A DNA stretch of 64,000 nt, taken from contig NZ_VWPI01000137.1 of the NCBI RefSeq assembly GCF_015155755.1, positions 1 to 64,000 of the forward strand, in the 5' to 3' direction. Both the position numbers and the translations under genes were made by a program. This DNA comes from Komagataeibacter sp. FXV3 (GTDB taxonomy: Bacteria; Pseudomonadota; Alphaproteobacteria; Acetobacterales; Acetobacteraceae). The notes below the pieces were generated by a model. The model saw nothing but the letters and a program-made list of their open reading frames with translations. It did not search any database and was not told where the DNA came from. Positions 7,563 to 57,701 of this stretch are shown here, piece after piece. Every line of letters starts with the position of its first letter. Position 1 is the first letter of the stretch.

Positions 7563-7564
7563 TC

Positions 7565-14770: not shown

Positions 14771-14772
14771 CG

Positions 14773-14855
14773 AAAGAAGTTTTTGGTGACGCTTTTTTCA
14801 AAAAGCTTCGAAGCATGCAGCCGTTTTGAAAAAAGACGGCACCCGGAAACTTCTG
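14773..14855. repeat. two-hairpin intergenic repeat, copy 3
   Basis: AAGAAGTTTTTGGTGACGC..., first palindrome GCTTTTTTCAAAAAGC, second stem GCCGTTTTGAAAAAAGACGGC, end ACCCGGAAACTTC. It lies between convergent epmA and thiE. Confidence 0.8.
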
Positions 14856-14862
14856 TTGTTTT

Positions 14863-15498
14863 TTAAGTGGTTTCTGCCGCCGCAATCGCCGCGTTCATGG
14901 CGCGTACACCCGCGCCGGCCCCATCGGGATGGGACCACACGGCACTGATCACCGACAGGAAGTCGGCCCCCGCGCGCACCAGCGTGCCGCAGTTTTCAGG
15001 CGTGATGCCACCAATGGCCACGACCGGCAGTTCGATCATGCTGCTCCACCACGTCAGCAGGGCGGGATCGGCGCGGATTTCGGTTTCCTTGGACGGGGAG
15101 GGGAAAAACGCACCAAACGCCACGTAATCAGCCCCCGCTTCCCCCGCGCGCAGGGCCATGTCGCGGCTGTCGTAGCATGATACGCCCAGTTGCAGTTCGT
15201 CTCCCAGCATGCGGCGCGCCGTGGCCACATCCGTATCGTCCATGCCCACATGCGCCCCGTCGCATCCGCAGGCGATGGCAAGGTCGGGCCGGTCGTTCAT
15301 GATGAAGGCCACGTCCCGCGCATGGGCAACGGGCTGCAATACGTCCACCGCGCGGCGGATCGTGTCGTCATCCACGTTTTTCAGGCGCAGCTGCACGGCC
15401 GCGACCGGACCTGCGTCCAGCGCTTCGGCCAGGCGGGGGGCGAACGTCACCGGATCAAGCGATTCGGGGGTGATGAGGTAAAGCTGGCAATCGGTCAT
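14863..15498 (-). CDS. thiE: thiamine-phosphate synthase
   Basis: Condenses HMP-pyrophosphate with thiazole phosphate to make thiamine phosphate. A 211-residue TIM barrel. Signatures include QLRLKNVDDD (usually QLR.K), FIMNDRPDLA, DGAHVGMDD, GVSCYDSRDMALRAGEAGADYVAFGAFFPSPSKE and AIGGITPENCGTLVRAGADFLSVISA, all in family order. No TPP riboswitch (THI box) could be found in the 300 bases upstream. It is transcribed alone. Confidence 0.93.
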   Translation of the reverse strand: MTDCQLYLITPESLDPVTFAPRLAEALDAGPVAAVQLRLKNVDDDTIRRAVDVLQPVAHARDVAFIMNDRPDLAIACGCDGAHVGMDDTDVATARRMLGDELQLGVSCYDSRDMALRAGEAGADYVAFGAFFPSPSKETEIRADPALLTWWSSMIELPVVAIGGITPENCGTLVRAGADFLSVISAVWSHPDGAGAGVRAMNAAIAAAETT

Positions 15499-17691: not shown

Positions 17692-18507
17692 TTGAGAATT
17701 CTGTTTCTGGGTGACATTGTCGGGCGCGTGGGGCGCGAAGCCGTTATTTCACGCCTGCCTACCCTGCGGCGCGACCTGGCACTCGATCTTGTGGTGGTGA
17801 ACGGGGAAAACGCCAGCCATGGCTTCGGCCTGTCGCCCGCCATCGGGCGTGACCTGATCGAAGCGGGGGCCGATGTCATCACCCTGGGCAACCATAGCTG
17901 GGATCGTCGTGACCTGATCGGCCATATCGATAGCGAACCCCGCATCATCCGCCCCGCCAACTACCCCCCTGGCACACCGGGACAGGGCAGCGTGGTGGTG
18001 GAACTGGTCGATGGCCGCAAGGCGCTGGTGGTCAGTGTCATGGGCCGTCAGTTCATGGATGCGATGGATGATCCGTTCCGCTCCGTCACCGATATCCTGT
18101 CGCGACACCGGCTGGGTGTGACCATGCACGCCGCCGTGGTGGACGTGCATGCCGAAGCCACGAGCGAGAAATGGGCCATGGGGCATTTCCTTGATGGCCG
18201 GGTATCGCTGGTGATCGGTACCCATACCCACACGCCCACGGCGGACCATCGTATCCTGTCCGGCGGTACCGCATTCCAGACCGATGCGGGCATGTGTGGC
18301 GATTATGACAGCGTGATCGGCATGGGCAAGGACGCGGCCATCGCCCGCTTCGTGCGCAAGATGCCCGGTGACCGCCTGCAACCCGCCGAAGGGGATGCCA
18401 GTATTGCGGGCATGATGGTGGAAACCGATGACGCGACCGGCCTGGCCCGCCGCATGGCCCCGGTCAGGCAGGGTGGCCATCTGGCCCCGACGCTGCCGGA
18501 TTTCTAA
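17692..18507 (+). CDS. YmdB-family metallophosphoesterase
   Basis: 271 residues from a TTG start (MRILFLGDIVG); the upstream frame to 17641 overlaps the previous gene and lacks similarity. Di-metal ligands are all visible: GDIVGRVGR (Asp8), NGENASHG, GNHSWDRR, VDVHAEATSEK and GTHTHTPTAD ... GDYDSVIGM. The family includes B. subtilis YmdB, a 2',3'-cyclic-nucleotide phosphodiesterase affecting biofilm and RNA turnover. It is probably in one operon with fau. It is followed by repeat copy 4 in reverse orientation. Confidence 0.92.
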   Translation: MRILFLGDIVGRVGREAVISRLPTLRRDLALDLVVVNGENASHGFGLSPAIGRDLIEAGADVITLGNHSWDRRDLIGHIDSEPRIIRPANYPPGTPGQGSVVVELVDGRKALVVSVMGRQFMDAMDDPFRSVTDILSRHRLGVTMHAAVVDVHAEATSEKWAMGHFLDGRVSLVIGTHTHTPTADHRILSGGTAFQTDAGMCGDYDSVIGMGKDAAIARFVRKMPGDRLQPAEGDASIAGMMVETDDATGLARRMAPVRQGGHLAPTLPDF

Positions 18508-18509
18508 AA

Positions 18510-18600
18510 GAAAGAAGTTTCTGGATGTCGCCTTTTTTCAAAAAGGCGGCGTTCTTCTGAAGCTTTTTGAAAAAAGCTTCACCAAAAACTTCCTTATGGT
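18510..18600. repeat. two-hairpin intergenic repeat, copy 4 (reverse)
   Basis: Reverse orientation: GAAGTTTCTGGATG..., stem GCCTTTTTTCAAAAAGGC, then GAAGCTTTTTGAAAAAAGCTTC, end ACCAAAAACTTCC. It lies between convergent ymdB-like and amn genes. Confidence 0.85.
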
Positions 18601-18702
18601 TTCGAGACTGTTTCGGGGACAGATTTTTTGAATGGTCCCGAAAATTAAAGCGGTTTGCAAAGGCCACTGCCCTTTGCCGGGTCTCAGGGCAGCGCCCTGA
18701 GA
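18601..18702. repeat. run of three further hairpins next to repeat copy 4
   Basis: Three successive stems: TTTCGGGGAC/GTCCCGAAA (18611-18652), GCAAAGG/CCCTTTGC (18657-18677) and TCTCAGGGC/GCCCTGAGA (18682-18701, nearly perfect). They probably belong to a second repeat type that is not seen elsewhere in this window. No gene lies here. Confidence 0.6.
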
Positions 18703-26962: not shown

Positions 26963-27039
26963 GGCGGACGTAGCTCAGTTGGTAGAGCGCCGGTTTGTGG
27001 TACCGGTTGTCGCGGGTTCAATCCCCGTCGTTCGCCCCA
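26963..27039 (+). tRNA. tRNA-His (anticodon GTG)
   Basis: 77 bases with an encoded G at position -1 (26963) facing C73, the histidine identity element. Acceptor GCGGACG/CGTTCGC, anticodon loop TTGTGGT with GTG, T arm GCGGG-TTCAATC-CCCGT, and CCA encoded. Confidence 0.97.
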
Positions 27040-27083
27040 ACCCACCTTTCCTGAAAATAACGAATATGACGTGTGGCGGCAGG

Positions 27084-27947
27084 CTATTGCCCGGGTCGCG
27101 CGAATGTGCGTTCCAGCCCGGCCAGTAGCGGCGTGGGCGTAAGCCCCAGTTGCGTGCGCATGGGAGCAATGTCGAAAATCTTGTCTTCCATCAGTCGCCG
27201 CACCTCGGCTGGCGCAATGTGGGGCAGGCCGGGCAGATGGATTCGCGCCGCCGCCATCAGCAGCCAGCCGGGAACGGATGCGACAGGCCGTGGGCGCAGC
27301 CCCGCCGCGATCGCGACATGGCGCGTGAAATCACGATAGGTAACCTGATCCCCACCCGCGATGACCAGGCTGTGCGGCCCATCCCACGCGTGGTTCAGGG
27401 CGGCAAGGATGGCGCGGGTCACATCGCCCTGCCATATGGGCTGGATGCGTGATGTGCCACCACCGGGCAGCGGCAGGATGGGCAGGCGGCGCATGAGGGT
27501 GGCAAGGCGCTGCACGTTATCCTCTCCCGTTGCGCCATAAATCATGGTCGGGTGCAGCAGCACGCCATGGCGGCCTGAGCGGACAAATGCCTGCGCGCCT
27601 GCCATCACGCCACGCGCATGCGCGTCGGGCCAGCGGGTAAAGATACGGGTGCTGCCCAGCGCCACGATCCGGGCCTGTGGCGCCGCCGCCGCCAGCACGG
27701 CGGGCAGGTGGCGGGCATGGGCGGTCAGGACAATGGACGTGGCATCAGCCAGTGCAGCGCGCAGGCGGCCGGTATCATCGCGCAGGTCAGCCACACGGGC
27801 CGGATACGCCATGCCCGTCGCCCGCCACCGGGACAGGTTGCGCATGACGGGCACAACGGGCCGCCGGGCCGCCTTCAGCGCATGGCACAGCGCCAGTCCC
27901 GACCGGCCGGTCGCGCCAATGACATGCACCGGCCCGGCATCGGTCAT
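27084..27947 (-). CDS. NAD-dependent epimerase/dehydratase family protein (atypical SDR)
   Basis: 287 residues. Nucleotide loop GATGRSG at residues 11-17 (TGxxGxxG type), then LGSTRIF and YGATGED, a stretch replacing the usual YxxxK, followed by GVLLHPTMIYG. This resembles extended SDRs of the complex I NDUFA9-like or NmrA-like kind; no substrate can be named. It overlaps the upstream membrane-protein gene by one base (CATCA junction), so the pair is translationally coupled. Confidence 0.8.
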   Translation of the reverse strand: MTDAGPVHVIGATGRSGLALCHALKAARRPVVPVMRNLSRWRATGMAYPARVADLRDDTGRLRAALADATSIVLTAHARHLPAVLAAAAPQARIVALGSTRIFTRWPDAHARGVMAGAQAFVRSGRHGVLLHPTMIYGATGEDNVQRLATLMRRLPILPLPGGGTSRIQPIWQGDVTRAILAALNHAWDGPHSLVIAGGDQVTYRDFTRHVAIAAGLRPRPVASVPGWLLMAAARIHLPGLPHIAPAEVRRLMEDKIFDIAPMRTQLGLTPTPLLAGLERTFARPGQ

Positions 27948-32057: not shown

Positions 32058-32145
32058 AACAAGGAAGTTTTTGGTGAAGCTTTTTTCTGAAAGCTTCAGA
32101 AGAACGCCGCCTTTTTAAAAAAGACGGCGCCAAAAAATTTTTATG
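32058..32145. repeat. two-hairpin intergenic repeat, copy 5
   Basis: AAGGAAGTTTTTGGTG, palindrome GAAGCTTTTTTCTGAAAGCTTC, second stem GCCGCCTTTTTAAAAAAGACGGC, end CCAAAAAATTTTT. Between convergent genes. Confidence 0.85.
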
Positions 32146-32168
32146 TTTATTTATCAATAATTTTTCCC

Positions 32169-33660: not shown

Positions 33661-33687
33661 GGAAAAGACTGTCTGAACAGTCTGCAA

Positions 33688-33778
33688 TCCCAAGAAAGTT
33701 TTTGCTGAAGCTTTTTTCAAAAAGCTTCAAAAGAACGCCGCCTTTTAGAAAAAAGGCGGTATCCAAAAACTTTGATTA
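33688..33778. repeat. two-hairpin intergenic repeat, copy 6
   Basis: AAGAAAGTTTTTGCTG, palindrome GAAGCTTTTTTCAAAAAGCTTC, second stem GCCGCCTTTTAGAAAAAAGGCGG, end ATCCAAAAACTTTG. Between convergent genes (small gene and ilvD). Confidence 0.85.
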
Positions 33779-33810
33779 TTTTCCAACAGTCTGCCAGGTC
33801 GCCGGATATA

Positions 33811-38171: not shown

Positions 38172-38292
38172 GTTTTTTTCTGAAAAATTACAGTGATTCT
38201 GTGCGGCGCACGTTGCGCATATGATACCGGCCAGACAGTCGGCATGGTGATTGCCAAACTGATCCATGGACCGTCCGGCAGGTGCATGGGAA

Positions 38293-38376
38293 TGATAAAA
38301 GCTTTTGGGCGCCGCCTTTTTTAAAAGGCGGCGATCTATCGAAGTTTTTTGAAAAACGCTTCACCAGAAACGTCCT
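38293..38376. repeat. two-hairpin intergenic repeat, copy 7 (reverse)
   Basis: GCCGCCTTTTTTAAAAGGCGGC stem followed by GAAGTTTTTTGAAAAACGCTTC and ACCAGAAACGTCC. Lies between tRNA-Thr and the convergent DsbA-like gene. Confidence 0.8.
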
Positions 38377-38940: not shown

Positions 38941-39304
38941 TGCCTGGATTCCTTCATGCTGACGGGGTGAGGGGCAGTTCCCCTCCATGGAACATGGGCG
39001 GGGCCTGCCGGTTCATCCACTGTCTTTTTTACCCCACGGATGGGACATATGCCTAATGGACCACTGCGGGCCGGTCGTGGTCGTGCATATAGGCAATCCG
39101 CTGGAAAGGCTGCATAAACGCAACGTTTCCCTTTTCCCGGAAATCTGCCAATGAGATGTCCCGCAAAACAGAAAGAGGTTTTTGGTGAAGCTTTTTTCAA
39201 AAAGCGCCAAAGAATACCGCCTTTTTGAAAAAAGGCGGTACCCAAAAACTTTTATTATTTTCTATCAACTGATTGTCCGGAAACAATTTCCAAGGTGGTA
39301 ATGC
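38941..39304. other. spacer holding repeat copy 8
   Basis: No gene seen. 38941-39170 holds only short frames. Repeat copy 8 (39173-39258) lies at its right side, the only copy between divergent genes. Confidence 0.5.
39173..39258. repeat. two-hairpin intergenic repeat, copy 8
   Basis: AGAGGTTTTTGGTG, damaged first palindrome (GAAGCTTTTTTCAAAAAGCGCC), intact second stem ACCGCCTTTTTGAAAAAAGGCGGT, end ACCCAAAAACTTTT. Sits upstream of the divergent amidohydrolase and DsbA-like genes. Confidence 0.85.
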
Positions 39305-40672
39305 ATGGTCCGCACCCTTTTGCTCAGGAATGCGCTGCGTCTGGTTACAATGGATGCCCGGCGGCGCGAAATCGAAGGGGGATGGGTACTGATACGTGAC
39401 CGGCAGGTCGCGGCCATCGGAACACCTGCGGACCCGTTGCCTGTGGCCGATGATGTCATTGACATGACAGGGCATGTGGTGATGCCGGGCATGGTCAATA
39501 CCCACCACCATATGTACCAGACCCTGACGCGCGTCATTCCGGCGGCACAGGATGCCTCCCTGTTCGGGTGGCTGCAGGCGCTCTATCCCATATGGGCAGG
39601 CCTGACACCGGAGATGATCCGCATTTCCGCCTGCACGGCCATGACGGAACTGCTGTGGTCGGGTTGCACCACCACCAGCGACCATCTGTACTTGTTTCCC
39701 AATGGCGCGCGGCTGGATGATGAAATCGAGGCGGCGGGGCAGATGGGCATACGTTTCCATGCCGCCCGTGGCGCGATGAGTGTTGGCGAAAGCAAGGGCG
39801 GCCTGCCGCCGGACCGCGTGGTGGAGGATGAAGACGCCATCCTGGCGGATACGCAGCGCGTGATCGAAACCTATCATGACCCGGCGCCACTTGCGATGTT
39901 GCGGGTGGCCGTGGCGCCGTGTTCGCCGTTTTCCGTCAGTCGTGATCTTATGCGCAATGCGGCTCACCTCGCGCGTGCGACAGGCACAATGCTGCATACC
40001 CATCTGGCGGAAAATGCCAGCGACATTGCCTACAGCCGTGAAAAATTCAACATGACCCCCGCCGAGTATGCCGAGGACACCGGCTGGGTCGGCCGGGACG
40101 TCTGGCACGCCCATTGCGTGCAACTGGATGATGCCGGCATTCATCGTTTTGGCATGACCCATACCGGCATGGCGCATTGCCCGTGTTCCAACATGCGGCT
40201 GGGGTCGGGTATTGCCCCGGTGCGGCGGATGGTGGCGGCGGGCATGCGCGTCGGGCTGGGGGTGGATGGTTCGGCTTCCAACGACGGCAGCCATATGCTG
40301 GGGGAAGCCCGTCAGGCCATGCTGCTGGGACGCCTGCTGCCCACGGGCAATAACCAGCCCATGATGCAGGCGCGTGAAGTGCTGGAACTGGCCACACGCG
40401 GCGGCGCCTGCGTGCTGGGACGTGATGATGTCGGCTATCTGGCCCCCGGCATGGCGGCGGATATCGTGGCGTTTGACATGCGCGGGATCGACCATGCGGG
40501 CGCGCAGTCCGATCCGGTGGCGGCGCTGGTGTTCTGTACGCCGGGGCGGGTGGCATGCAGCATCGTCAATGGGCGGGTGCTGATCCGCGATGGACAGTTT
40601 ACGGCGCATGACCCGGCCGCACTGGCCCGGCGGCATAACGTGCTGGCCCGTGAACTGCTGGAAAAAGCCTGA
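39305..40672 (+). CDS. amidohydrolase, 8-oxoguanine deaminase type
   Basis: 455 residues, metal-dependent deaminase of the ATZ/TRZ branch. Metal ligands: NTHHHMYQ, MLHTHLAE, HAHCVQL and GVDGSASNDGSHM (catalytic Asp). The CSPFSVSRDLM and ASNDGSHML stretches are what I recognise from 8-oxoguanine deaminases, which salvage or detoxify 8-oxoguanine to urate; other substrates of this subfamily (isoguanine-like, hydroxy-triazines) remain possible. ATG preceded by CCAAGGTGG. It is a single-gene unit, followed by repeat copy 9. Confidence 0.85.
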   Translation: MVRTLLLRNALRLVTMDARRREIEGGWVLIRDRQVAAIGTPADPLPVADDVIDMTGHVVMPGMVNTHHHMYQTLTRVIPAAQDASLFGWLQALYPIWAGLTPEMIRISACTAMTELLWSGCTTTSDHLYLFPNGARLDDEIEAAGQMGIRFHAARGAMSVGESKGGLPPDRVVEDEDAILADTQRVIETYHDPAPLAMLRVAVAPCSPFSVSRDLMRNAAHLARATGTMLHTHLAENASDIAYSREKFNMTPAEYAEDTGWVGRDVWHAHCVQLDDAGIHRFGMTHTGMAHCPCSNMRLGSGIAPVRRMVAAGMRVGLGVDGSASNDGSHMLGEARQAMLLGRLLPTGNNQPMMQAREVLELATRGGACVLGRDDVGYLAPGMAADIVAFDMRGIDHAGAQSDPVAALVFCTPGRVACSIVNGRVLIRDGQFTAHDPAALARRHNVLARELLEKA

Positions 40673-40679
40673 TAAGGAA

Positions 40680-40772
40680 TGACAGAAGTTTCTGGGTGCC
40701 GCGTTTTTTCAAAAAAGGCGGCGTTCTTCGAAGCTTCGTGGGAAAAAGCTTCACCAAAAATTTCTTTATGAT
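40680..40772. repeat. two-hairpin intergenic repeat, copy 9 (reverse)
   Basis: AGAAGTTTCTGGGTGCCGCGTTTTTTCAAAAAAGGCGGC, then GAAGCTTCGTGGGAAAAAGCTTC, ACCAAAAATTTC. Between convergent amidohydrolase and SDR genes. Confidence 0.8.
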
Positions 40773-40807
40773 TCCAAGGATATTCCAGACGGTTCCTGTC
40801 CAGTCGA

Positions 40808-46071: not shown

Positions 46072-47391
46072 GTGTCATTCTCTCGCCGTAGCCTGAGCAC
46101 TCGCCTGCTTCGTAACTGCTCGTTGCCGTTGTTTTGTGCAATGCTGTTAATGGGGTGTGCAGCAGCGCGTGACCCGGTACCAGCCCATGAAAAAATCGGT
46201 CGTTATGCTTCTGTAGTACCCTTTTATAAAGCGCTGGATTCATTGCAGGGTGGGCAGGCGACCGAACCTGTGACCGTACTGCAGATTGGTGACAGCCATA
46301 CCGCCAACGATGCTTTCAGCGACCAGATGCGCACCCTGTTGCAAAAGGATTTCCAGAATGCCGGCAGGGGTTTTCTACAGCCTGGCATTCCATTCCGCTA
46401 TTACCACCCTGCGCAGGTTACGGTTTCTTCTACAGGATGGACGCCTGTCAGTGCGTTCAGCAAAACAGCGACAGGCCCGTGGGGTATCAGTCTGGTCAGG
46501 CAGCATGCGGATGCGTCCGCCAGCATGACCATTACCCCGGATGAAGCGGGGGGTGCCGGACGTGGCATGGTGGAGTTCCTCAGCCAGCCGGGTGGCGGTC
46601 AGCTTGTCATACAGACTGATGATGGCGGGCGTACGGTTGTTTCAACCGCGTCATCGCAGGATTCTGATTCCATGTGGCTGCGGATGCCCACCACGGCTGA
46701 TACGCACGCCGTCACGGTCTCCGCCATGGGTGATGGTCCGGTGGATGTCCTGGGCTGGGAAGTGGCGAAAGGAAGTCAGGCAAGGCCCGCACCGGGAATA
46801 TTATATTCCAATCTGGGTATTACAGGTTCCACCATAGAAATCCTGAGCCGGGTCGATCCTAAGATACTATCGGAAGAAATGCGGCGTCTGGACCCGCGCC
46901 TTCTGATTATTGCCTTTGGCACCAACGAAGGTTTCAATACTTCAACAAATTTCGATACATATTCGGCACGATACGAGCAGATCATACAGACGCTGCATGA
47001 TGCGGCGCCCATGGCGGGGCTTGTGGTTGTCATGCCGCCCGATGGCGTACGCCAGGAACGACTGCCCCCTTTCACCCGGTCGTGTGACAAGCTGGTGTCC
47101 ACGGGCAGGGGCTTTGCCTCACCGGCCGCCCTCAATACCGTCCGGCAGGCCCAGACTGACGTCGCCCGGCGTAACCACTGGATGCAGTGGGACTGGCGGC
47201 AGGCCATGGCGGATACAGCCCACCCGGATGGACGATGCACCATTCTTGTCTGGGGTAACCGCAACCCGCCAATCGCCGCGAAGGATCATGTTCATCTTCT
47301 GAAAGCGGGCTATCAACAGACCGCCACGTCATTATACGATGACTTGATGAATGGTTATAAGCTGTGGACGTCACTGAAACATAAAAAATAA
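46072..47391 (+). CDS. SGNH/GDSL-like lipoprotein, O-acetylation partner of the MBOAT protein
   Basis: 439 residues from a GTG start with a GGGAAC ribosome site. The lipobox LLMGC puts the lipid on Cys29. SGNH signatures: LQIGDSHTANDAF (nucleophile Ser), FGTNEGF (Asn) and KDHVHLLKAGY (Asp/His). A beta-sandwich-like insert (about 120-230) separates block I from the rest, as in PatB, AlgJ/AlgX and similar acetyltransferases. Its stop codon overlaps the MBOAT start (TAATG), so the two are coupled. Confidence 0.85.
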   Translation: MSFSRRSLSTRLLRNCSLPLFCAMLLMGCAAARDPVPAHEKIGRYASVVPFYKALDSLQGGQATEPVTVLQIGDSHTANDAFSDQMRTLLQKDFQNAGRGFLQPGIPFRYYHPAQVTVSSTGWTPVSAFSKTATGPWGISLVRQHADASASMTITPDEAGGAGRGMVEFLSQPGGGQLVIQTDDGGRTVVSTASSQDSDSMWLRMPTTADTHAVTVSAMGDGPVDVLGWEVAKGSQARPAPGILYSNLGITGSTIEILSRVDPKILSEEMRRLDPRLLIIAFGTNEGFNTSTNFDTYSARYEQIIQTLHDAAPMAGLVVVMPPDGVRQERLPPFTRSCDKLVSTGRGFASPAALNTVRQAQTDVARRNHWMQWDWRQAMADTAHPDGRCTILVWGNRNPPIAAKDHVHLLKAGYQQTATSLYDDLMNGYKLWTSLKHKK

Positions 47392-48803
47392 TGCTTTTTC
47401 CAACGCTTGACTTCGCCTTATTCTTTATTGCCGTTGCTGTCATTCTCGCATTGATTGGTGGCCTGTGGGAAATCAAGAAGATCTTTCTGGTTGCTGCAAG
47501 CTACGTCTTTTATGCATGCTGGAACTGGCATTTCTGCTTTCTCCTGCTGTTCAGTACGACTGTCAGTTATTCGGTTGGCCTGTTTTTGCCAGAAGAAGAC
47601 AATCCACGTTTACGTAAATGGATGGTTGGCGGCGGTATAGCTGTTCAGTTGCTGGTTCTGGCGTTTTTCAAATATTACGATTTCTTTGCGACATCCCTGA
47701 ATAAGGCGACACGTGATATCGGATGGGGGGAACCTGTTCCGCTTATTGAAATCCTTCTGCCCGTCGCCATTTCATTTTTTACCTTTCATGGCATCAGCTA
47801 CATTGTTGATGTGTATCGTGGTAAAGTCACGCGGTGCCGTCGTTTTACGGACATGATGCTGTATATGTCCTTTTTTCCGCAGCTTGTGGCCGGACCGATT
47901 GTACGTTCTTCCAAATTCCTGCCGCAGCTGGAACGGCCATCAAGCAATCCTCCCCCCATGGCAACAGCCCTGTTGATGATTGCAGGGGGACTTTTCAAGA
48001 AAGTTATATTGGCAAGCTATCTGGGAACGCAGCTTGTCGACCCGGTTTTTGCTGATCCTGCCAGTTTTTCCACGCTGGATCTGGTATTCGCCCTCTATGG
48101 ATTTGCCGTTCAGATATTCTGTGATTTTTCTGGTTATACGGACATTGCCATAGGCCTGGCTGCGCTGCTGGGTTTCGAATTTCCGCAAAACTTCAACCAG
48201 CCTTACCGGAGTGCGTCCCTGCGCGATTTCTGGCGGCGGTGGCATATGACGCTATCGTTCTGGCTGCGTGACTATCTCTACATACCGCTTGGCGGTAGTC
48301 ATCGTGGTGGGGTGCGTACATCCGCCAATCTTCTGATTACCATGCTTCTGGGCGGCCTGTGGCACGGTGCCGCCATGAAATTTGTCATGTGGGGCGCGTT
48401 GCATGGCGGTGGTCTGGTGCTGGAACGCCCTTTTTCCGAGCGTCTGGAAAATAGCCGGGGCATTTTCCGCATCATGGCCGTGCTGCTGACATTTCACTTT
48501 GTCTGTCTGACATGGCTGTTTTTCCACGCGGAAGATATGCAAAGCGTCTGGTTTTACCTGCAGTCCATAACACCCCTGAAACCAGGAAGTTTTGCACAGG
48601 TCACGCCCTTCATGCTTGGCCTGATCGCTATTGGTATCGGTCTGCATTTTGTGTCCAGGAACATGCCTGAACGTATTGCAGCGTTTCCCGTGGTGCAGCG
48701 TGCGCCGGACTGGGCGCTGGCCCTTGCGTTCGGTATCTGTGTGTTAATGATTGATGCCGCAGGACCAAGCGGTGTCGCTCCCTTCATATATTTTCAGTTC
48801 TGA
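47391..48803 (+). CDS. MBOAT-family O-acyltransferase (AlgI/PatA-like)
   Basis: 470-residue polytopic inner-membrane protein. MBOAT landmarks: SYVFYACWN near the N-terminus, FFTFHGISYIVDVYRGK, FFPQLVAGPIVR, FNQPYRSASLRDFWRRWHMTLSFWLRDYLYIPLGGS and GGLWHGAAMKFVMWGALHG with the catalytic His. In AlgI, DltB and PatA this fold passes acetyl groups across the membrane to a periplasmic partner, here the SGNH lipoprotein just upstream. Starts at TAATG and ends overlapping the next ATG (TGATG), so translation is coupled at both sides. Confidence 0.93.
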   Translation: MLFPTLDFALFFIAVAVILALIGGLWEIKKIFLVAASYVFYACWNWHFCFLLLFSTTVSYSVGLFLPEEDNPRLRKWMVGGGIAVQLLVLAFFKYYDFFATSLNKATRDIGWGEPVPLIEILLPVAISFFTFHGISYIVDVYRGKVTRCRRFTDMMLYMSFFPQLVAGPIVRSSKFLPQLERPSSNPPPMATALLMIAGGLFKKVILASYLGTQLVDPVFADPASFSTLDLVFALYGFAVQIFCDFSGYTDIAIGLAALLGFEFPQNFNQPYRSASLRDFWRRWHMTLSFWLRDYLYIPLGGSHRGGVRTSANLLITMLLGGLWHGAAMKFVMWGALHGGGLVLERPFSERLENSRGIFRIMAVLLTFHFVCLTWLFFHAEDMQSVWFYLQSITPLKPGSFAQVTPFMLGLIAIGIGLHFVSRNMPERIAAFPVVQRAPDWALALAFGICVLMIDAAGPSGVAPFIYFQF

Positions 48804-49075: not shown

Positions 49076-49156
49076 TGGATATGTATTTTTATATTTTAAA
49101 TAAAAAATTAATGATATAAATTATTAAATACTGTTTTTATTATTAATTAAAAGTAA

Positions 49157-49241
49157 AATTTTTTGGGCACCGGCTTGTTTTAAAAAGGCGACGTCTTTTC
49201 GAAGCTTTTTGGAAAAAGCTTCAGCAAAAACTTTCTTATGA
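49157..49241. repeat. two-hairpin intergenic repeat, copy 10 (reverse)
   Basis: AATTTTTTGGGCACC, degraded stem GGCTTGTTTTAAAAAGGCG, then GAAGCTTTTTGGAAAAAGCTTC and AGCAAAAACTTTC. It marks the 3' end of the acetylation operon. 49242-49640 beyond it holds no gene I can support. Confidence 0.75.
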
Positions 49242-49643
49242 TTTCAGGATATGTCTGTATCTGACTTTTAAAACCGTCTTCAAGATCCTTGCGGGTCAGT
49301 GGCATGAGACGCTGGCGCGGCCAATACAACGATTGCCGCCGGTTCGCTGGTCGAATAGGCAACCACCCGGTTACGTGATGATCGCAGGCAGTCAGGTCCT
49401 GGGGACAAGCAGTATGCTTTATCCTTACTGATGTTCTTGATGCTGGCAGGGGCCACAGGACGCAGGCAGGGTATCGCTGTGTGAAGCCTGCGGAACATCA
49501 TGCAGGGGTCAATGTATGCCTAAGTCGGTCATGTGCAGTATCCTGGCCGCCTACGCCCTGTGTCTGATTTGGGCAGGGTCAGTTCTGTCCATGTCCTGAC
49601 GGCTTTCACGCTACGCATGAAGGCACATTGTCCAGACATACCA

Positions 49644-49771
49644 TGCACGTCATTCATGCCCTACGATATGTAATGCTGCACATGTAACCACACCATGCGG
49701 AACTATACCGCTGGGCATAGCTAGTTAACTGATTTCATACTGGGAAACAGGATATGGCGGAGAGAGTGGGA
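49644..49771. repeat. left attachment-site repeat with a relict integrase start
   Basis: TGGCGGAGAGAGTGGGA (49755-49771) repeats the 3' end of tRNA-Ser exactly. The 100 bases to its left match, without gaps and at about three-quarters identity by eye, the 100 bases left of the intact tRNA-Ser (57511-57610). The match includes the integrase ATG itself (here minus strand 49655-49657) and the next few codons (M-N-D-V-H against M-N-D-M-H). Confidence 0.85.
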
Positions 49772-50016: not shown

Positions 50017-50778
50017 CTAGATGCTATTTTGGACCGAATAAACCAAATTGGACAGTTCCTCTATGTTCATCCAGGGACGTTGTGCGTGGATCATACGATG
50101 GCAATTTGCGCATACGAGCGCCAGGTCGTCCAAACGTGTTTTCGTCTCGTTAGGCAGATCGGAAAGAGGCTTAATGTGATGACATTCTATAAACCCCTGT
50201 CCCCTATCGCCATATCGTTCGACAAAATCGAAACCGCATGCTTCACAAGCAAGGCGTCCGGTTTTTGCTAGGACGTCCTTTTTCTTGGCCTGGACAATCT
50301 TCCTGGAACGCTCCCGGCTGTGATGCAGCACCGTAAGTATCCTTCCCTCGGGCGCTTCAACCTCCTCCATGCTCAATGCATCATTTTTCACGTAGTCAGT
50401 GGGTGATAATGTGTTGGCTGCAATTGCCTGGCGGATCGCTTCAGCCGTTTCCCGCAGATGTTCCGGCTGGCCCGCAAAGTCATTCCACACCTCAACTTCT
50501 AAACGGTTGCCCGCTTTCAATCCGGCTCTGTCCTTGAATGCTGGGTCATGGGCGCGAAGGTTCATGAGCTTCATTTTGACGCCGTTTGGATTGCGCAGGG
50601 TCGCCCCGTCAAAACCCTGCGAACGCCAGAGGCTATTTAAGGTGTTGCTTAATTCCTGGACTTCCGTATTGCCCTCGCTAGGCCATGCTCCTTCCAGTTT
50701 CTGATAAAGGTCGAGGGCAAGGATAATCTCATCACGTGTCCACGGTGGATTGCGCTTCGCTTTTTCCGTTTCCGTCAC
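50017..50778 (-). CDS. HNH endonuclease with N-terminal helical domain (McrA-like)
   Basis: 253 residues from a GTG at 50778 with GGAGGG upstream (a TTG at 50796 is the alternative). The N-terminal part NPPWTRDEIILALDLYQKL ... RNPNGVKMKLMNLRAHDP is a domain that I know from restriction-like HNH proteins. The nuclease domain is C-terminal: zinc pairs CEAC and CANC, and catalytic ECHHIKPLSDL with LVCANCHRMIH. A role in restriction of modified or foreign DNA is plausible. It is last in a three-gene unit with the polymerase-like and Bro-N genes. Confidence 0.85.
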   Translation of the reverse strand: MTETEKAKRNPPWTRDEIILALDLYQKLEGAWPSEGNTEVQELSNTLNSLWRSQGFDGATLRNPNGVKMKLMNLRAHDPAFKDRAGLKAGNRLEVEVWNDFAGQPEHLRETAEAIRQAIAANTLSPTDYVKNDALSMEEVEAPEGRILTVLHHSRERSRKIVQAKKKDVLAKTGRLACEACGFDFVERYGDRGQGFIECHHIKPLSDLPNETKTRLDDLALVCANCHRMIHAQRPWMNIEELSNLVYSVQNSI

Positions 50779-50835
50779 CGCTTGGTATCCCTCCAATAAA
50801 TCTAGACGGAGGATATGCGAATAAGGGCAGCAAAG

Positions 50836-51336
50836 TTAGCTGAAAAGCTGCTCTTTCTCGGCCAAACGGGCCTCAAGCAGCTCTGTCTTGCGCTTCATAA
50901 GCCCGACAATCATATCGTTCAGGCTATCGAGGTCTTCCACGCTCGATGCACCCGCTACCTTTTCCTCGTCACGGACGTAAACACCTTCCTTACGGAGCGT
51001 GGGGAGAGCAGTCTGCGTCACCCAGTCCTGAAAGGGGCGTGCGTTGGGCTTGTCGCAGCGAAGGATAAGGCGGTAAAGTCCTGCCTCGGAAATCATGATG
51101 GTGCGCCGGTTACTACCAGCCGAATTGGTAGTAATGATAGTCCGCCGATCCACGCTTCCAAGGTAGTGAATATGGTTCGAGTAGCTCCCGGTCGCTGGGT
51201 TCTTTTTCAGACCGATAGCTTCGCACACATCCGTCAAGGCAAACCACGGCTGGCCCGCATGGGTTTCAACGCGGATTTCCTGTGGCTGGCCGTCCAGCTT
51301 CGTGAAGGTTTCGATAGTTACTTCGGGGTTTGGCAT
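50836..51336 (-). CDS. Bro-N domain phage antirepressor-like protein
   Basis: 166 residues (ATG 51336; TTG at 51348 also possible). The Bro-N core is clear: GQPWFALTDVCEAIGLKKNP, ISEAGLYRLILRCDKPNARPFQDWVTQTALPTLRKEGVYV. A C-terminal coiled coil follows (DSLNDMIVGLMKRKTELLEARLAEKEQL). Such proteins bind DNA and regulate phage or element genes. Very close to both neighbours on the same strand (35 and 57 bases). Confidence 0.9.
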   Translation of the reverse strand: MPNPEVTIETFTKLDGQPQEIRVETHAGQPWFALTDVCEAIGLKKNPATGSYSNHIHYLGSVDRRTIITTNSAGSNRRTIMISEAGLYRLILRCDKPNARPFQDWVTQTALPTLRKEGVYVRDEEKVAGASSVEDLDSLNDMIVGLMKRKTELLEARLAEKEQLFS

Positions 51337-51371
51337 CGAAGGTATCAATTTGTTTGACGCCTTGCCTATTG

Positions 51372-52763
51372 CTATCCGCTGGCGTCCGATACCGTGACCC
51401 GAAGGGGCTGGCCCAGCCGTTCCTTACTGGCCTGCACGATTGCCTCACGCGCCCTGTCAGCCCATGACCGGGGCACGATCAAAGCGTCATGCATGGGCAG
51501 CGCAACGCCGCCTTGGTCCATAATCCAGCCCATTGCCCTGCGCATAATCTGGGCTTCCACGCAGGTTAGGAATTGCCCTACAGCTTTCGGGTGGTAGTCC
51601 TCCGGGACTGTTGCCATTATCTCGGCTGGCACAAGCCTGCTCAGGTCAGACAGGAACGGATACCGCCGTATAGCGGCCTTGTTTATAGCGGATGCGGCGA
51701 TGCTATCCCGAATATCGGGCGGTGTGTTCTTGGGCCAACGGGCGCACGGTTTGCCAATTCCGAACGTGCCTACAAACCATTGTTTAACAGCGGCGCGGTG
51801 TGACGGTGCCACCCAAGGTAGGTCATACAGATCACCATCCGGCACTGTCCCGCCTGACAGGATCAGGGCAATGGAAAGGAAAGAGGCGGATATATCGACC
51901 TCGGCCATAGGTTCACCGTCTATCGTGATGAACTGCCTGTCCGCCTTGTGTAGACTGTTCTGGTAGTTATCCGCGCCCTTGGCATATATCCGTCCTCCGA
52001 AATCTAGAGAGCCGGTAAAGCTCATCTGGAATACCGGGGCGGCGCATCCTGCTATGCGATGGCGGCCCACAGCGGCGGATAGACGCGCCATAAAATCCGT
52101 AAGCGATTGAGGCACAGTGTCCTGTGGCAGGGCTTCGCCGGGAAACGGCTTGATGCTAACAGGCTGACAGTCCGATAAGACGGGCGCAGGATGCCGTAGA
52201 GGCCAGTCCGTAACGGCTGTTGTGCGATTGCACCCGCGCGACTCCGCAAGCTGCAAGAGGGTTGCTGAGGGCCTTATACGGGCTTCCTCGCCCTGCCAGT
52301 CTCCCCAACCGTTCTTCCAGCCTTTACCCGGCACATAGTCCAAGAAACCAAGCTCGATCATGGCGCGGGCTTTCTTCCAGAAGGCATTATGACCAATCGG
52401 TAGATCGCGGTCTTTACCCCAAAACCAGCGGCCAGAGCCTTCATGGACAGCCTGCCAATCCCCACGAAAGCCGCTGCGCATCAGCCCTGCAAGAATGATG
52501 CCGGTCTCCATTATGCGGCGCTCCTGGCCCTTATCACGGTCTCTTTTGGGCGCTGCTGTCGTCGGCTTTCCTGCCCGTGCAATCAGTGGGCGGAGGGCAT
52601 CGGCCACTTCGGCTACGAGCTTTTCCGCTGCTTCTCCGTGCGGGCGGCGACCAAGGGATAGCGTGCGGGCTTCCTGCAATTCCTCAGTGTTGTGAGGATG
52701 TGATGGCGGTCGCTTCTGGAATGTATCCTGTGGCGCATCCATTATGGTCCGAAACCTTTCCAC
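51372..52763 (-). CDS. compact polymerase-like protein (family-A/T7-RNAP-type motifs)
   Basis: 463 residues from GTG 52763, whose AGGAGG site is four bases upstream; an ATG seven codons in is the alternative. Residues 80-160 contain a helical, winged-helix-like part (IMETGIILAGLMRSGFRGDW, FWKKARAMIELGFLDYVPG). The C-terminal half carries what I read as polymerase motifs: A in MAEVDISASFLS (Asp290), B in SHRAAVKQWFVGTFG (Arg323, Lys327, Phe334-Gly335) and C in ALPMHDALIVP (His425-Asp426), in the right order and spacing for family-A DNA polymerases or T7-like RNA polymerases. No exonuclease domain is present. It may replicate or transcribe the element; this is inference from motifs. Confidence 0.6.
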   Translation of the reverse strand: MERFRTIMDAPQDTFQKRPPSHPHNTEELQEARTLSLGRRPHGEAAEKLVAEVADALRPLIARAGKPTTAAPKRDRDKGQERRIMETGIILAGLMRSGFRGDWQAVHEGSGRWFWGKDRDLPIGHNAFWKKARAMIELGFLDYVPGKGWKNGWGDWQGEEARIRPSATLLQLAESRGCNRTTAVTDWPLRHPAPVLSDCQPVSIKPFPGEALPQDTVPQSLTDFMARLSAAVGRHRIAGCAAPVFQMSFTGSLDFGGRIYAKGADNYQNSLHKADRQFITIDGEPMAEVDISASFLSIALILSGGTVPDGDLYDLPWVAPSHRAAVKQWFVGTFGIGKPCARWPKNTPPDIRDSIAASAINKAAIRRYPFLSDLSRLVPAEIMATVPEDYHPKAVGQFLTCVEAQIMRRAMGWIMDQGGVALPMHDALIVPRSWADRAREAIVQASKERLGQPLRVTVSDASG

Positions 52764-52775
52764 CTATCCTCCTAA
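52746..52775 (-). repeat. element leader repeat, copy A
   Basis: 30 bases, one mismatch from 54031-54060. On the minus strand it reads AGGAGGATAGGTGGAAAGG and covers the ribosome site and first codons (MERFRT) of the polymerase-like gene. Confidence 0.8.
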
Positions 52776-53068: not shown

Positions 53069-53758
53069 TTATGCATGGCCTGCGTTCTGGTCGGGATCAA
53101 GACAACGCTTCACCGCCGCTGCGGTCCATGTCTCACGGCCACGGCTGGTCTTGATGCCCATGTCCATTAACTCGGTAGCAATGGCCCGCAGGGAAAGCCC
53201 TTTGGCGTGCAGGTCGGTGATGATCGGCCCTACATGCCCCTTGAACGCCGCAGCTTTCGCCTGAATGGCCGCTGTGCCCTTCGCATGGTCTGGCGCGGGG
53301 CCACCGCGCTTGCCACCGAGCACGACGCCACGGGCCTTTGCAGCGGCTAGGGCCACCTTGGTCCGTTCGGATATCATGCGGCGCTCCTTCTCGGCCATGG
53401 CGGCCCAGATATGAAGCATGAACGGGTCAGCATCCTTGCCAAGCTCGGCCACGATGAACGGGACACGTTCCACCATTAGGCCAGCGATGAACGCCACATC
53501 ACGACTGAGCCGGTCGAGCTTCGCCACGATCACCGGGCATTGCATGACCTTAGCCTTGTCCAGCACATCGCGGAGTTGTGGCCGCTTTACCAGCGCATCG
53601 CTGCCCTTGCCGGTCTCGACCTCCGTGAACACTTCCACCACGCTGAAGCCTTCTGTCTGGGCAAAATGCTGTATGGCCGCAAGCTGCGCATCCATGCCCA
53701 GACCACTCTTGCCCTGTTTGGCCGTGCTCACCCGGACGTATGCGACTGCTTTCTGCAT
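53069..53758 (-). CDS. serine recombinase (resolvase/invertase family)
   Basis: 229 residues. The catalytic domain begins [13 protein letters not shown] with nucleophile Ser11, continues with [26 protein letters not shown] and the [15 protein letters not shown] motif, then [17 protein letters not shown]-like helix E ([17 protein letters not shown]). The C-terminal helix-turn-helix ([21 protein letters not shown]) binds DNA. ATG with AGGAAT upstream. Resolvase-size, so suited to resolving or inverting DNA within the element rather than large-serine integration. Confidence 0.93.
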
Positions 53759-54433
53759 GGCGTTACATTCCTGTCGTCGTTCGTTGTCTGATTTGATACA
53801 GGCAGAACGGACGGATGGACCATATACAATCTGGAATCATGCCGATTCCGAAAACGCATGGCTGCGGAATGTGTGGTCTGGATACCTTTTCGGGACTCAA
53901 AACGGTCCACTAGACGGCCAGAAAGCCCGACCGGTCGCACTTCCAAAACCGGGGGATTAAGCCGTTGTTGTTGTTCAGCGCAACGCCGAGAGAAGTTACC
54001 CAGCGGAAATCCTACGGAGTTCGGCAAGGTGGTCCGAAACCTTTCCACTTATCCTCCTAATGGTCCCTTCCGAACTGCTCTCACTATAGGAGTGGCCTGG
54101 GTCCCTCCTATGGATACCTTCGCGGCCCAAATGGGCATTCTGTGGATAAGTCCAGTTTCTATAATGTTTTGAAAGGGTTACGTCAATAATGGGGAAATAG
54201 TGCTTGTAATAGAGACACACCCCTAATGTATATAAGGTATAGGGCTGGTGTGTAGGTCCCTGACTATCAGGACCATACCTCATTCATCCTCATTATAATG
54301 AGTAACCATATTCATAGGAGCATAGAGATATAAGGATGATGGTCATTGGCTATTGAGCCAACAGTCAACACCATTGCTGATCTTGTAGCAACCGATCCTG
54401 CTGATCCGCGAGGCCAAGACACCAGAGCGACGC
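53759..54433. promoter_or_regulatory. control region of the element with palindromes
   Basis: No gene is supported. Contains leader repeat copy B (54031-54060), a stem ACACACCCCTA/TAGGG-CT-GGTGTGT (54210-54252), GGTCC(C)TGA/TCAGGACC (54255-54274) and a perfect 14-base palindrome CTCATTATAATGAG (54289-54302). The AT-rich, palindrome-rich stretch 54170-54360 lies between the leftward and rightward gene groups and probably holds their promoters and operator, perhaps an origin. Confidence 0.5.
54031..54060 (-). repeat. element leader repeat, copy B
   Basis: Matches 52746-52775 with one difference. On the minus strand it gives TTAGGAGGATAAGTGGAAAGG and a frame starting MERFRT that runs as a 106-codon unlikely product, so this looks like a duplicated leader without its gene. 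Confidence 0.75.
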
Positions 54434-55105: not shown

Positions 55106-55264
55106 ATGGCTCATAACCACACGCCACAGAATAAGGAGACCACGATACCGTTGTTTATAGCTGACGGCCTGCTTTCATTGAGCGGGCTTCTGCCGATGCC
55201 TTTCTGTGGTGCCAACCATCTAAAGGACATTGAACAGAGACGGCTTTACCTCATACCCGGCTGA
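55106..55264 (+). CDS. small element protein
   Basis: 52 residues from ATG 55106: a polar start (MAHNHTPQNKETTIP) then a hydrophobic stretch LFIADGLLSLSGLLPMPFCGA and a basic end. Overlaps the start of the HNH gene by 35 bases, suggesting coupling. Function unknown. Confidence 0.4.
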   Translation: MAHNHTPQNKETTIPLFIADGLLSLSGLLPMPFCGANHLKDIEQRRLYLIPG

Positions 55265-55799
55265 CGAAAACAGCCACGACAAAAGCAACACTCCATCTGA
55301 AACACAGCAGGAAAGGAAACAGCGCCCAGAAGGCTTAACTCTCGCAGAAGCAATCAATTATCACACAGACAAAAAGACCGGCTACTGGACCGCGTCATGT
55401 GACAGTGATGGCTACCCGCACATTTGGTGGGAAGGGAAGCTCCGGGCTGTCCACCGTGCTCTAGCTACGCTTGCCGGATGGGATATTGTCGGCAAAGTTG
55501 TCATGCATATTGACGATAACCCGCTTCATGTTCGTCTTGAGAATCTTCGAGTCGGAACACAGGCCGAAAATATGGCTGATATGGCCGTGAAGGGCAGGGG
55601 CGTGGCAGGAAAAGCCAATCCTCGCATTACACCTGCGGAAGCGTCTGTCATTATTCGGCAATATGACGCGGGGGCGACAATCAGGCAAATAGCCAAAGAC
55701 ACATTCCGGAGCCGTGGCAGTATCCGTAATCTTATAAAGCGGCACCAGACCGCTACAGACGATCAGAATACCGCTCAGGCTGCGTTTGCTTTTTCCTGA
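55230..55799 (+). CDS. HNH homing-endonuclease-like protein
   Basis: 189 residues from a TTG preceded by AAAGGACA. HNH_3-type core: HRALATLAGWDIVGKVVMHIDDNPLHVRLENLRVGTQAENMADM, with the H-x(n)-H-x(n)-N arrangement in VHRALA, MHIDDN and ENLRVGT. The C-terminus has a helix-turn-helix-like DNA-binding part (ASVIIRQYDAGATIRQIAKDTF). Typical of free-standing phage homing endonucleases. It is followed by an intrinsic terminator and is convergent with the integrase. Confidence 0.85.
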   Translation: MNRDGFTSYPADENSHDKSNTPSETQQERKQRPEGLTLAEAINYHTDKKTGYWTASCDSDGYPHIWWEGKLRAVHRALATLAGWDIVGKVVMHIDDNPLHVRLENLRVGTQAENMADMAVKGRGVAGKANPRITPAEASVIIRQYDAGATIRQIAKDTFRSRGSIRNLIKRHQTATDDQNTAQAAFAFS

Positions 55800-55917: not shown

Positions 55918-57513
55918 CTAGAGCGCGAGGCGCACGGCTTCTGGCATTCCCATTTCCACCATGCCCAAAATGGCCCGCTCGTATGAGCTATGACCCAGCG
56001 CCCCAACATAGGTATTGTCTCCCAACGCCTGCGGGACATGGCCCACAAGACGATCCCGTATCAGTGGCGTGCAGGCATTCGCGCCTCTGGCCGCAGCCTC
56101 CGCAAAATAGGTCATGAACGTGCCTCGGAGGTTATGGAATGTATGCGGATCATCCTCACCCAGCACAGCCCGCCGGAACGTGGTAAAGCGTTTCGAGAAC
56201 GTCCACGAGCGTTTCCGGTCGGGGCCACCGGGCGGCAATTCAGGGAACAGCGGGGCGTTAGCCTTCCCGTTCGGCTTAATCTGATCCAATCGGCGGGCAA
56301 TGATAGGCTGCACCAGTGGATGCAAAGGGATACGCCGCTGGGAATTGAGCGTTTTGGCCACTTCGGAGGTAACACGTATCGCCCATAGGCCGCCCTCGGC
56401 TTCTGGCGGGATCACTCTATCCCGTGTCAGGCTGCATAATTCGTTCTGGCGTGCTCCGGTAAACAGGGCCAGGCGCAACAGGTCGTGGATGGCGGGGCCA
56501 TACTTCCAGCGGCTTACGGTGTTCGGATCAGCCCGCAGAAGGCGAAGCATGTCCGCCTCCGCAAACGCTGTTTCCTTGTCGTCCTCTTGGTCTTCCTGCT
56601 CGGCCCGACGCTTTAGGCCCGTGGTGGCTCCCTGCCACGGATTTGTGCCCGATGCATAGCCTTTGCGTTCAGCCCATCCCCAGAACACGCTCAAGGGGCT
56701 GATACGACTCTGTATGGTCTTTGCCTTGAGCTTACGGACCTGTGCCAGCCACTCGGGAAACTCAGCAATGGTCCGCTTTGTCAGGGCTTCAATCGCCACC
56801 GTCCTTATATAAGCCTCACCGTCCTGGGCTGGCTGGCCCTCCCGTTCCAGCAGGAACTCACCCAGCAGGCGGAAGGACAGATGATGGCCCATGAGTGTCT
56901 GCCGCTTCACTGTGCGGTCAATGTCACGAAACCAGCGGTCAAGAAGGTCGCCCATGGGCGTAATCTCACCCAGCGCGACAGCCTTGAACCTGTCGATATA
57001 CGGTCCTGCATTCTGCCCAGCTTCACGCAATGTCTCGGCCCGGTCGCTCAGGATGTTCAGCATGTCGCTAATCATCCGGTCCCGCTCACTGGTGCGCATG
57101 GTGGTCAGGCGAAGCGATCCATTCGGATTTTCGCGGTAGACTTCCTCAGTTTGATCCTCACGGGTGGATGCGCGGGCAATCTCCTGCCGTGCTTCCAGCG
57201 CCTCAGCGGTTGCGTTGTCTTCCTCAGCCCATGCAAAGGCCCATTCAGGTTTCCAGTCGCCATGCAGGGGAGGCAGGCCGATGGCTTGCAGCCGAGCGTC
57301 TATCTCAACGCGTATCTTTTCAATCGCTAAGGCACGGCGGCCCATCGCTTCGTTGCGGTCGGTCGTGTTCAGCGTCCTGACCACCTCCGCCTTGTGCCCG
57401 CTCTTGGCACCGAAAGCCTTTCCAACATCCTCACGGCGCTCACGCGGCACATGAAAGCGCACGCTCCATGTCTGGGCACCAGTGCGACGGAAGATGTTGT
57501 GCATGTCGTTCAT
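55918..57513 (-). CDS. tyrosine integrase of the element
   Basis: 531 residues, longer than most phage integrases, with an N-terminal arm-binding region and helical insert of about 200 residues. Catalytic residues are in place: Arg in TGARQNELCSL, Lys region in EVAKTLNSQRRIPLH, HNLRGTFM (His-x2-Arg), LVGH and the nucleophile Tyr in NTYVGALGH. It lies 98 bases from the 3' end of tRNA-Ser, its integration site, and points away from the tRNA. Start ATG 57513. Confidence 0.95.
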   Translation of the reverse strand: MNDMHNIFRRTGAQTWSVRFHVPRERREDVGKAFGAKSGHKAEVVRTLNTTDRNEAMGRRALAIEKIRVEIDARLQAIGLPPLHGDWKPEWAFAWAEEDNATAEALEARQEIARASTREDQTEEVYRENPNGSLRLTTMRTSERDRMISDMLNILSDRAETLREAGQNAGPYIDRFKAVALGEITPMGDLLDRWFRDIDRTVKRQTLMGHHLSFRLLGEFLLEREGQPAQDGEAYIRTVAIEALTKRTIAEFPEWLAQVRKLKAKTIQSRISPLSVFWGWAERKGYASGTNPWQGATTGLKRRAEQEDQEDDKETAFAEADMLRLLRADPNTVSRWKYGPAIHDLLRLALFTGARQNELCSLTRDRVIPPEAEGGLWAIRVTSEVAKTLNSQRRIPLHPLVQPIIARRLDQIKPNGKANAPLFPELPPGGPDRKRSWTFSKRFTTFRRAVLGEDDPHTFHNLRGTFMTYFAEAAARGANACTPLIRDRLVGHVPQALGDNTYVGALGHSSYERAILGMVEMGMPEAVRLAL

Positions 57514-57627
57514 ACCCTACGATATGTAACGCTGCACATGTAACTACACCATACAGAACTGTAACGTCAGGTGTTGCTAAGTGACTGATTTTATAAGGGA
57601 AAATAGAGCATGGCGGAGAGAGTGGGA
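57500..57627. repeat. right attachment-site repeat at tRNA-Ser
   Basis: The 17 bases at 57611-57627 are the tRNA 3' end and equal the left copy. The stretch 57500-57610 between integrase start and tRNA aligns with 49644-49754 at the same spacing. Confidence 0.85.
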
Positions 57628-57701
57628 TTCGAACCCACGGTACGCTATTAACGTACACACGCTTTCCAAGCGTGCGCCTTAAGCCGCTCGGCCATCTCTC
57701 C
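57611..57701 (-). tRNA. tRNA-Ser (anticodon GGA)
   Basis: 91-base class II tRNA with encoded CCA: acceptor GGAGAGA/TCTCTCC, anticodon loop TTGGAAA (GGA), long variable arm TGTACGTTAATAGCGTACC, T arm GTGGG-TTCGAAT-CCCAC. Intact despite the element inserted at its 3' end, because the element restores the end sequence. Confidence 0.96.

Follow-up and report, generated by a model that had tools for sequence, protein, structure and literature searches.

A compact family-A polymerase homologue related to TV-Pol and divPolA2 in a small tRNA-Ser integrative element

We analysed a window of 64,000 nucleotides from Komagataeibacter sp. FXV3 (contig NZ_VWPI01000137.1, positions 1 to 64,000) and found that a 7.86-kb integrative element at a tRNA-Ser gene encodes a protein of 463 amino acids that is almost certainly a homologue of the family-A superfamily of polymerases and very probably of the divPolA2/TV-Pol type. 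As the best overall explanation, we favour with reasonable confidence an exonuclease-less family-A palm polymerase that copies its tRNA-Ser element or primes the copying. The original prediction held that such a gene set would be an unusual replication or transcription module; the same kind had already been described by Iyer et al. in 2008 (PMC2579912) and again by Yutin et al. in 2024 (PMC11348598), and the 463-residue protein is a further member, located in an integrative element. By sequence, the divPolA2 family of phages is linked to polymerases of integrative elements that show the TV-Pol layout. The member is also compact, intact and well bounded, a sibling element is available and a naturally empty site exists, so that it can be tested directly whether a minimal family-A palm makes DNA, RNA or primers.

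The polymerase gene, its conserved residues and its predicted fold

The open reading frame at 51372-52763 encodes 463 amino acids, as originally predicted; the strand, which the prediction did not give, is the minus strand. The motif strings also lie at the residues named in the prediction, i.e. VDISASFLS with D290, R323-x3-K327 and MHDAL with D426, and are far above chance. The gene, its domains and its conserved positions are as follows.

51372-52763, minus strand: TV-Pol/divPolA2-type polymerase gene, 463 aa; open reading frame with a GTG start at 52763
52128-52682, minus strand: N-terminal domain, residues 28-212, two long helices and a winged-helix-like unit; AlphaFold2 model
51375-52154, minus strand: polymerase core, palm and fingers, residues 204-463; VIA-align Z about 15, hhalign to Pol I
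51990-51992, minus strand: R258, the Arg of a GR beta-hairpin ahead of motif A; invariant in 41 and in 35 homologues
51894-51896, minus strand: motif A Asp290, metal-binding position; invariant, aligned to Pol I motif A
51783-51797, minus strand: motif B R323-x3-K327, first fingers helix; both residues invariant in 41 sequences, aligned to the R-K pair of Pol I motif B
51486-51491, minus strand: motif C H425-D426; D426 invariant, H425 in 40/41, aligned to Pol I HDE

Homologues were collected from whole genomes, GTDB contigs and IMG/VR contigs. In a 41-sequence alignment with a mean column identity of 18% and homologues down to 15% identical, R258, R276, I281, G283, D290, Y313, R323, K327 and D426 never vary, and D311 is kept in 40/41. 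A second set of 35 homologues, which is partly independent of the first and has members absent from it, has R258, R276, D290, K327 and D426 as invariant residues. Loss of Asp290, Lys327 and Asp426 in homologues had been named as evidence against the original prediction, and all three are invariant in both sets. R258 of the GR hairpin and R276, neither of which the prediction mentioned, lie just N-terminal of motif A as in Pol I. Motif B had been read as ending in FG: the letters F334-G335 are present, but they are not the family-A FG, and F334 is not conserved. In Pol I motif B, F762-G763 lies 4-5 residues past the Lys and Y766-G767 lies 8-9 residues past it; in the alignment with Pol I, the FG/YG register positions are occupied by V331 and G335.

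Using the 41-sequence alignment, AlphaFold2 gave a model with a family-A palm and fingers (pLDDT 87.5, pTM 0.85). A fold without a right-hand palm had likewise been named as counter-evidence; a right-hand palm was predicted, and the top PDB matches are all Pol I or single-subunit RNA polymerases (RNAPs). With Foldseek against the PDB, the best 50 matches of the model were all family-A DNA polymerases, while VIA-align gave a Z of 15.7 for M. smegmatis Pol1 (241 residues, 3.8 Å), 15.2 for yeast mitochondrial RNAP and 15.0 for T7 RNAP. The predicted fold is the one common to the superfamily, and by fold DNA and RNA polymerases are not told apart. The closest viral structural relatives are phage proteins of 400-450 aa, one of them from Rheinheimera phage Barba31A.

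The N-terminal part had been described as helical, which holds for its two long helices and does not hold for the winged-helix-like unit with a beta-hairpin that follows them. Folded alone, residues 28-212 again gave two long helices, a helix-turn-helix and a beta-hairpin wing (pLDDT 87.2, pTM 0.80). This domain alone had no Foldseek match under E 0.04 and no match to RNAPs by sequence. The top VIA-align Z was 6.4, to winged-helix regulators; the T7 RNAP N-region reached 6.2 and is tied with winged-helix proteins, and we do not claim homology to it. The N-terminal domain may bind template or origin DNA.

The single PHROGs match of the protein was phrog_4756, a family annotated as function unknown (E 3.4e-14). 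Sequence searches of Pfam, NCBIfam and the PDB with the protein alone returned nothing useful, a PDB search with family profile A2 returned no match, and the Pfam cut-off for PF00476 (DNA_pol_A) was reached neither by the protein nor by any of the 35 homologues. Family members mostly carry the annotation 'hypothetical protein', and the family has no Pfam or NCBIfam model. A marginal PADLOC match to AbiEi (E 0.012 over 32 residues) was dismissed as chance. phrog_4756 was matched in 32/385 sampled genomes of the class Alphaproteobacteria, and the protein itself in 16/249 genomes from the same bacterial family. Direct tblastn of the protein found no match among phages and one among plasmids (Neorhizobium, 29% identical); viral contigs with relatives were retrieved solely through the family profile.

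Compared with a sibling copy in a genome of the same genus (G631), which is 90% identical at the amino acid level, the polymerase gene has a dN/dS of 0.13. We conclude from this ratio that the gene is genuine and under purifying selection. Several Acetobacteraceae relatives (L035, L038/L053, L039/L052 and L042/L051) are interrupted by stops or frameshifts, consistent with the decay of resident elements that is expected for mobile-element genes.

The tRNA-Ser element and its siblings

The original prediction placed the polymerase, together with Bro-N and HNH genes, in an integrative element of less than 8 kb. Consistently, att repeats delimit an element of 7.86 kb, the genes of which have the corresponding Pfam matches.

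57611-57701, minus strand: tRNA-Ser (GGA), integration target; ARAGORN and Rfam
57610-57627: att core, tRNA-side copy (ATGGCGGAGAGAGTGGGA); direct repeat D1, spacing 7856 nt
55918-57513, minus strand: tyrosine integrase, 531 aa, adjoining tRNA-Ser; phrog_1 integrase (3.5e-29) and Pfam Phage_integrase (9e-5)
55230-55799, plus strand: HNH_3 and helix-turn-helix protein, 189 aa; Pfam HNH_3 (3.3e-8)
53069-53758, minus strand: serine resolvase/invertase-type recombinase, 229 aa; Pfam Resolvase (1.3e-25)
50836-51348, minus strand: Bro-N protein, antirepressor-like, 170 aa, directly 3' of the polymerase gene; Pfam Bro-N (2.1e-20)
50017-50796, minus strand: HNH endonuclease protein, 259 aa; Pfam HNH (8.5e-10)
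49754-49771: att core, distal copy; direct repeat D1, delimiting the 7.86-kb element with the tRNA-side copy

The identical 18-nt att core corresponds to the tRNA 3' end and is nested in a 131-nt repeat (79%). Between the att copies, the resolvase, polymerase, Bro-N and HNH genes are read one way in this order, and the HNH_3 gene is read in the opposite direction. A helicase, SSB, classical primase or initiator gene was not recognised in the element.

In G631, an element of about 7.77 kb is integrated at tRNA-His and bounded by a 26-nt att direct repeat (L153, 4109-11877). It holds a resolvase, polymerase, Bro-N and HNH_3, the first three of which are in inverted orientation with respect to the integrase; the tRNA-His locus of the window (26964-27101) is the same site, empty of an element of the G631 type. 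Amino acid identities between the window and G631 are 90% for the polymerase and 93% for the resolvase as compared with 40% for the integrase, 62% for Bro-N and 68% for HNH_3, and the dN/dS of the resolvase is 0.10. Given the 90% and 93% identical pair versus the 40% identical integrases, resolvase and polymerase seem to travel together from element to element, under purifying selection. In G631, there is a 4-nt overlap between the reading frames of the polymerase and Bro-N, which suggests that the two are translationally coupled.

In a third genome (G638; L154 and L155), the same tRNA-Ser adjoins an integrase end that is 95% identical, with other cargo, including a different resolvase and a 293-aa protein that also occurs in the element of G631; integrase and cargo have been reshuffled. 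No polymerase was seen in the assembled pieces of the G638 element, so that not all elements of this type require one. By a raw count of nearest genes, an integrase or resolvase accompanies 28 of 46 relatives; every other gene family beside these relatives occurs in at most three loci.

Several further features of this region were observed. The segment 41788-57610 next to tRNA-Ser, about 15.8 kb, is absent in G631 and includes a GDSL lipase/MBOAT acyltransferase pair (46072-48803). Beyond the distal att, 49500-49754 resembles the beginning of a second integrase gene with the region upstream of it, and the 131-nt repeat reaches into this sequence; the integrase-like start suggests that an older element, now decayed, lies in tandem at this tRNA-Ser. 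A 31-nt repeat (97%; 52745-52775 and 54030-54060) brings the polymerase ribosome-binding site and first codons a second time, upstream of the resolvase gene. The polymerase start of G631 matches this repeat, and G638 is without the segment bearing the second copy; possibly, the repeat is a recombination scar or a duplicated start. The interval between the resolvase and polymerase genes gave no signal of a constrained non-coding origin, its identity to the sibling being 85% and slightly below that of coding sequence. Finally, a dispersed repeat of about 90-110 nt, of a REP-like family, has at least 10 copies in the window and several in the sibling loci by blastn.

2803-2890, 7563-7640, 14772-14865, 18505-18614, 32064-32158: dispersed REP-like repeat copies
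33676-33781, 38291-38374, 39166-39274, 40670-40776, 49145-49246: further copies of the dispersed REP-like repeat

Relationship to Pol I, RNA polymerases and described families

By hhalign, the family profile matched Pol I of related genomes with E 4.7e-7 and a probability of 92.6, and D290, R323/K327 and H425-D426 are opposite the residues of Pol I motifs A, B and C, respectively. The family-A order A-B-C that had been read by eye is thereby borne out with all three motifs in register. The real score was 54.3, compared with a maximum of 30.8 for 100 column-shuffled Pol I profiles and 12.3 for a reversed profile. Against an alignment of seven T7-like RNAPs, which was used since hhalign with the single T7 RNAP sequence gave no information, E was about 0.01 and the match covered motif C alone. 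This weak score is compatible with distant kinship, because hhalign likewise recovers no match between the Pol I and T7 RNAP alignments. We conclude that, in a comparison that is not symmetrical, the family lies much closer in sequence to Pol I than to the seven T7-like RNAPs.

The positions of Pol I E710, F762, Y766 and E883 hold H/Y/Q/F, N/T/V, mostly G, and S/G/A, respectively. Neither are the T7 hallmarks Gly542 and Tyr639 kept, since Gly occurs at A+5 in 2/41 sequences and the Tyr639 position lacks Tyr. Motif C is HD[S/G/A], which resembles HDS of T7 and not HDE of Pol I. A bulky H/Y/Q/F as found at motif A+5 could exclude NTPs as a steric gate. Diagnostic residues of both classes are missing, neither class fits residue by residue, and the product may be DNA or RNA. 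In sum, the protein shares with Klenow/Taq DNA polymerase I (PF00476) the motif order A-B-C, the GR hairpin and the palm/fingers fold, whereas it is without exonuclease domains, a recognisable Pol I thumb, a Pfam match and equivalents of E710, F762, Y766 and E883.

divPolA2 was described from barbaviruses and other phages as a protein with an active palm, no exonuclease and an unrelated N-terminal domain (PMC11348598). It resembles DNA as well as RNA polymerases, is found together with a regular PolB, sits in variable neighbourhoods, and was deemed unlikely to be the replicative polymerase by its authors, who raised the possibility of an RNA polymerase (PMC11348598). Our family profiles retrieved the divPolA2 reference AUR84708 with E 1.5e-8 (A1, close relatives only), 9e-26 (A3, built from the 463-aa protein and its relatives) and 3e-33 (A2), and this reference matches phrog_4756 with E 1.8e-91, compared with 3.4e-14 for the 463-aa protein. 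Thus, the protein is by sequence a member of the divPolA2 family, with which it shares the size of 430-460 aa, a palm with active-site residues, the lack of an exonuclease, a globular N-terminal domain in place of the thumb and the twofold likeness to DNA and RNA polymerases. It is distant from the phage members, with best relatives that are 25-35% identical. Moreover, descriptions of divPolA2 are confined to tailed phages that have a regular PolB, whereas the gene analysed here resides in a small tRNA-targeted element with an integrase, a resolvase and Bro-N.

The TV-Pol polymerases are mobile-element proteins of 400-600 aa that have an Arg hairpin, two metal-binding Asp and, in the fingers, a further conserved Asp and RxxxK; one branch has an all-helical N-terminal domain and alphaproteobacterial hosts, and the neighbours include resolvase, integrase, transposase and Bro-N genes, as in a Brucella element composed of polymerase, resolvase and Bro-N/KilA-C (PMC2579912). 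The present protein has the R258 hairpin, D290 and D426, and R323/K327 as invariant residues along with D311 in 40/41, and a resolvase, an integrase and Bro-N are encoded inside its element. It is different from the TV-Pol branch with a D5 helicase (e.g. Sputnik). In Microcystis phage LMM01, named by Iyer et al., the best candidate was MAP_030, with a similar motif order and a weak, non-significant hhalign E of 0.003-0.012. It is our own identification that MAP_030 is the TV-Pol candidate of this phage. TV-Pol membership is by defining features and context and not by a direct sequence match.

In the literature, we found no report of an assay for any polymerase of this kind apart from the distant CcPol, a TV-Pol of SCCmec (PMC7581432, PMC10061031). 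CcPol is an active DNA polymerase that extends primers alone, primes de novo with its partner MP, and needs two catalytic Asp (PMC7581432). The CcPol-MP and PolA-SSB primases of SCCmec-like elements likewise combine a family-A core with a serine recombinase in a mobile element and are a precedent for priming (PMC7581432, PMC10061031). However, CcPol is annotated as family A, members of its group with a full polymerase domain retain the Pol I exonuclease region in part or in full, and the partners of CcPol are an OB-fold protein and a helicase. By sequence, no recurrent small partner gene, SSB family or helicase was found beside the 46 relatives, using a method that may miss partners of the MP type, which are detectable mainly by structure prediction (PMC10061031).

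Proposed role and alternative readings

In the explanation that we favour, Asp290 and Asp426 would bind the two catalytic metals, R323 and K327, both on the first fingers helix, would contact the incoming nucleotide, and R258 would contact the template. The helical and winged-helix-like N-terminal domain would replace the thumb and probably bind template DNA. The tyrosine integrase would excise and integrate the element, and the polymerase, in an operon with the serine resolvase and Bro-N, would copy the excised element or prime its copying. By analogy to CcPol, the polymerase most likely extends, and perhaps self-primes, strands on element DNA after excision, assisted by the host helicase and replisome, and the resolvase would separate the element copies. 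We infer polymerase activity from the conserved residues and predicted fold; that the protein makes DNA on, or primes, the element itself has in our view an even chance of being correct. Autonomous replication of the element is unsupported, because no helicase, SSB or classical primase gene is present in the element or recurs beside relatives.

On balance unlikely, though deserving of consideration, is the reading that the protein has an accessory function, as a DNA polymerase for repair or gap filling or as mutagenic cargo, and is not the element's replicase or primase. The absence of a helicase or initiator from the element, the divergent cargo of G638 next to a nearly identical integrase, and the co-occurrence of phage divPolA2 with a regular PolB, together with its variable neighbourhoods (PMC11348598), would fit such an accessory. 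However, the repeated linkage with integrase and resolvase genes suggests a role in mobility, as does the co-movement of a resolvase-polymerase pair that is 90-93% identical between elements with 40% identical integrases. Similarly, we regard as doubtful that the protein is a compact single-subunit RNA polymerase or RNA primase, which would transcribe element genes or make RNA primers: profile comparison places the family far nearer to Pol I (E 4.7e-7) than to the seven T7-like RNAPs (E about 0.01), the T7 residues Gly542 and Tyr639 are missing, the bulky A+5 residue is compatible with a steric gate, and the N-terminal domain has no sequence match to RNAPs. Nevertheless, T7 and mitochondrial RNAPs (Z 15.0-15.2) tie with Pol I in fold score, motif C is like that of T7, Pol I Glu710 has no counterpart, the N-terminal domain shows a weak match to the N-region of T7 RNAP (Z 6.2, tied with winged-helix proteins), and the same possibility has been voiced for divPolA2 (PMC11348598).

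It is quite unlikely that we are dealing with a one-protein primase-polymerase or a small RNA polymerase of a new biochemical type. In such an enzyme, the winged-helix-like N-terminal domain would replace both thumb and partner, and a family-A palm of about 260 residues would start chains de novo on element DNA without a DnaG, AEP or SSB partner. An inactive, decayed polymerase retained as a DNA-binding or regulatory protein would account for the loss of Pol I hallmark residues beyond the catalytic core and for the stops and frameshifts in several relatives; we consider it highly improbable, given that both metal-binding Asp and R-x3-K are invariant at an overall identity of 15-35% and that the dN/dS is 0.13.
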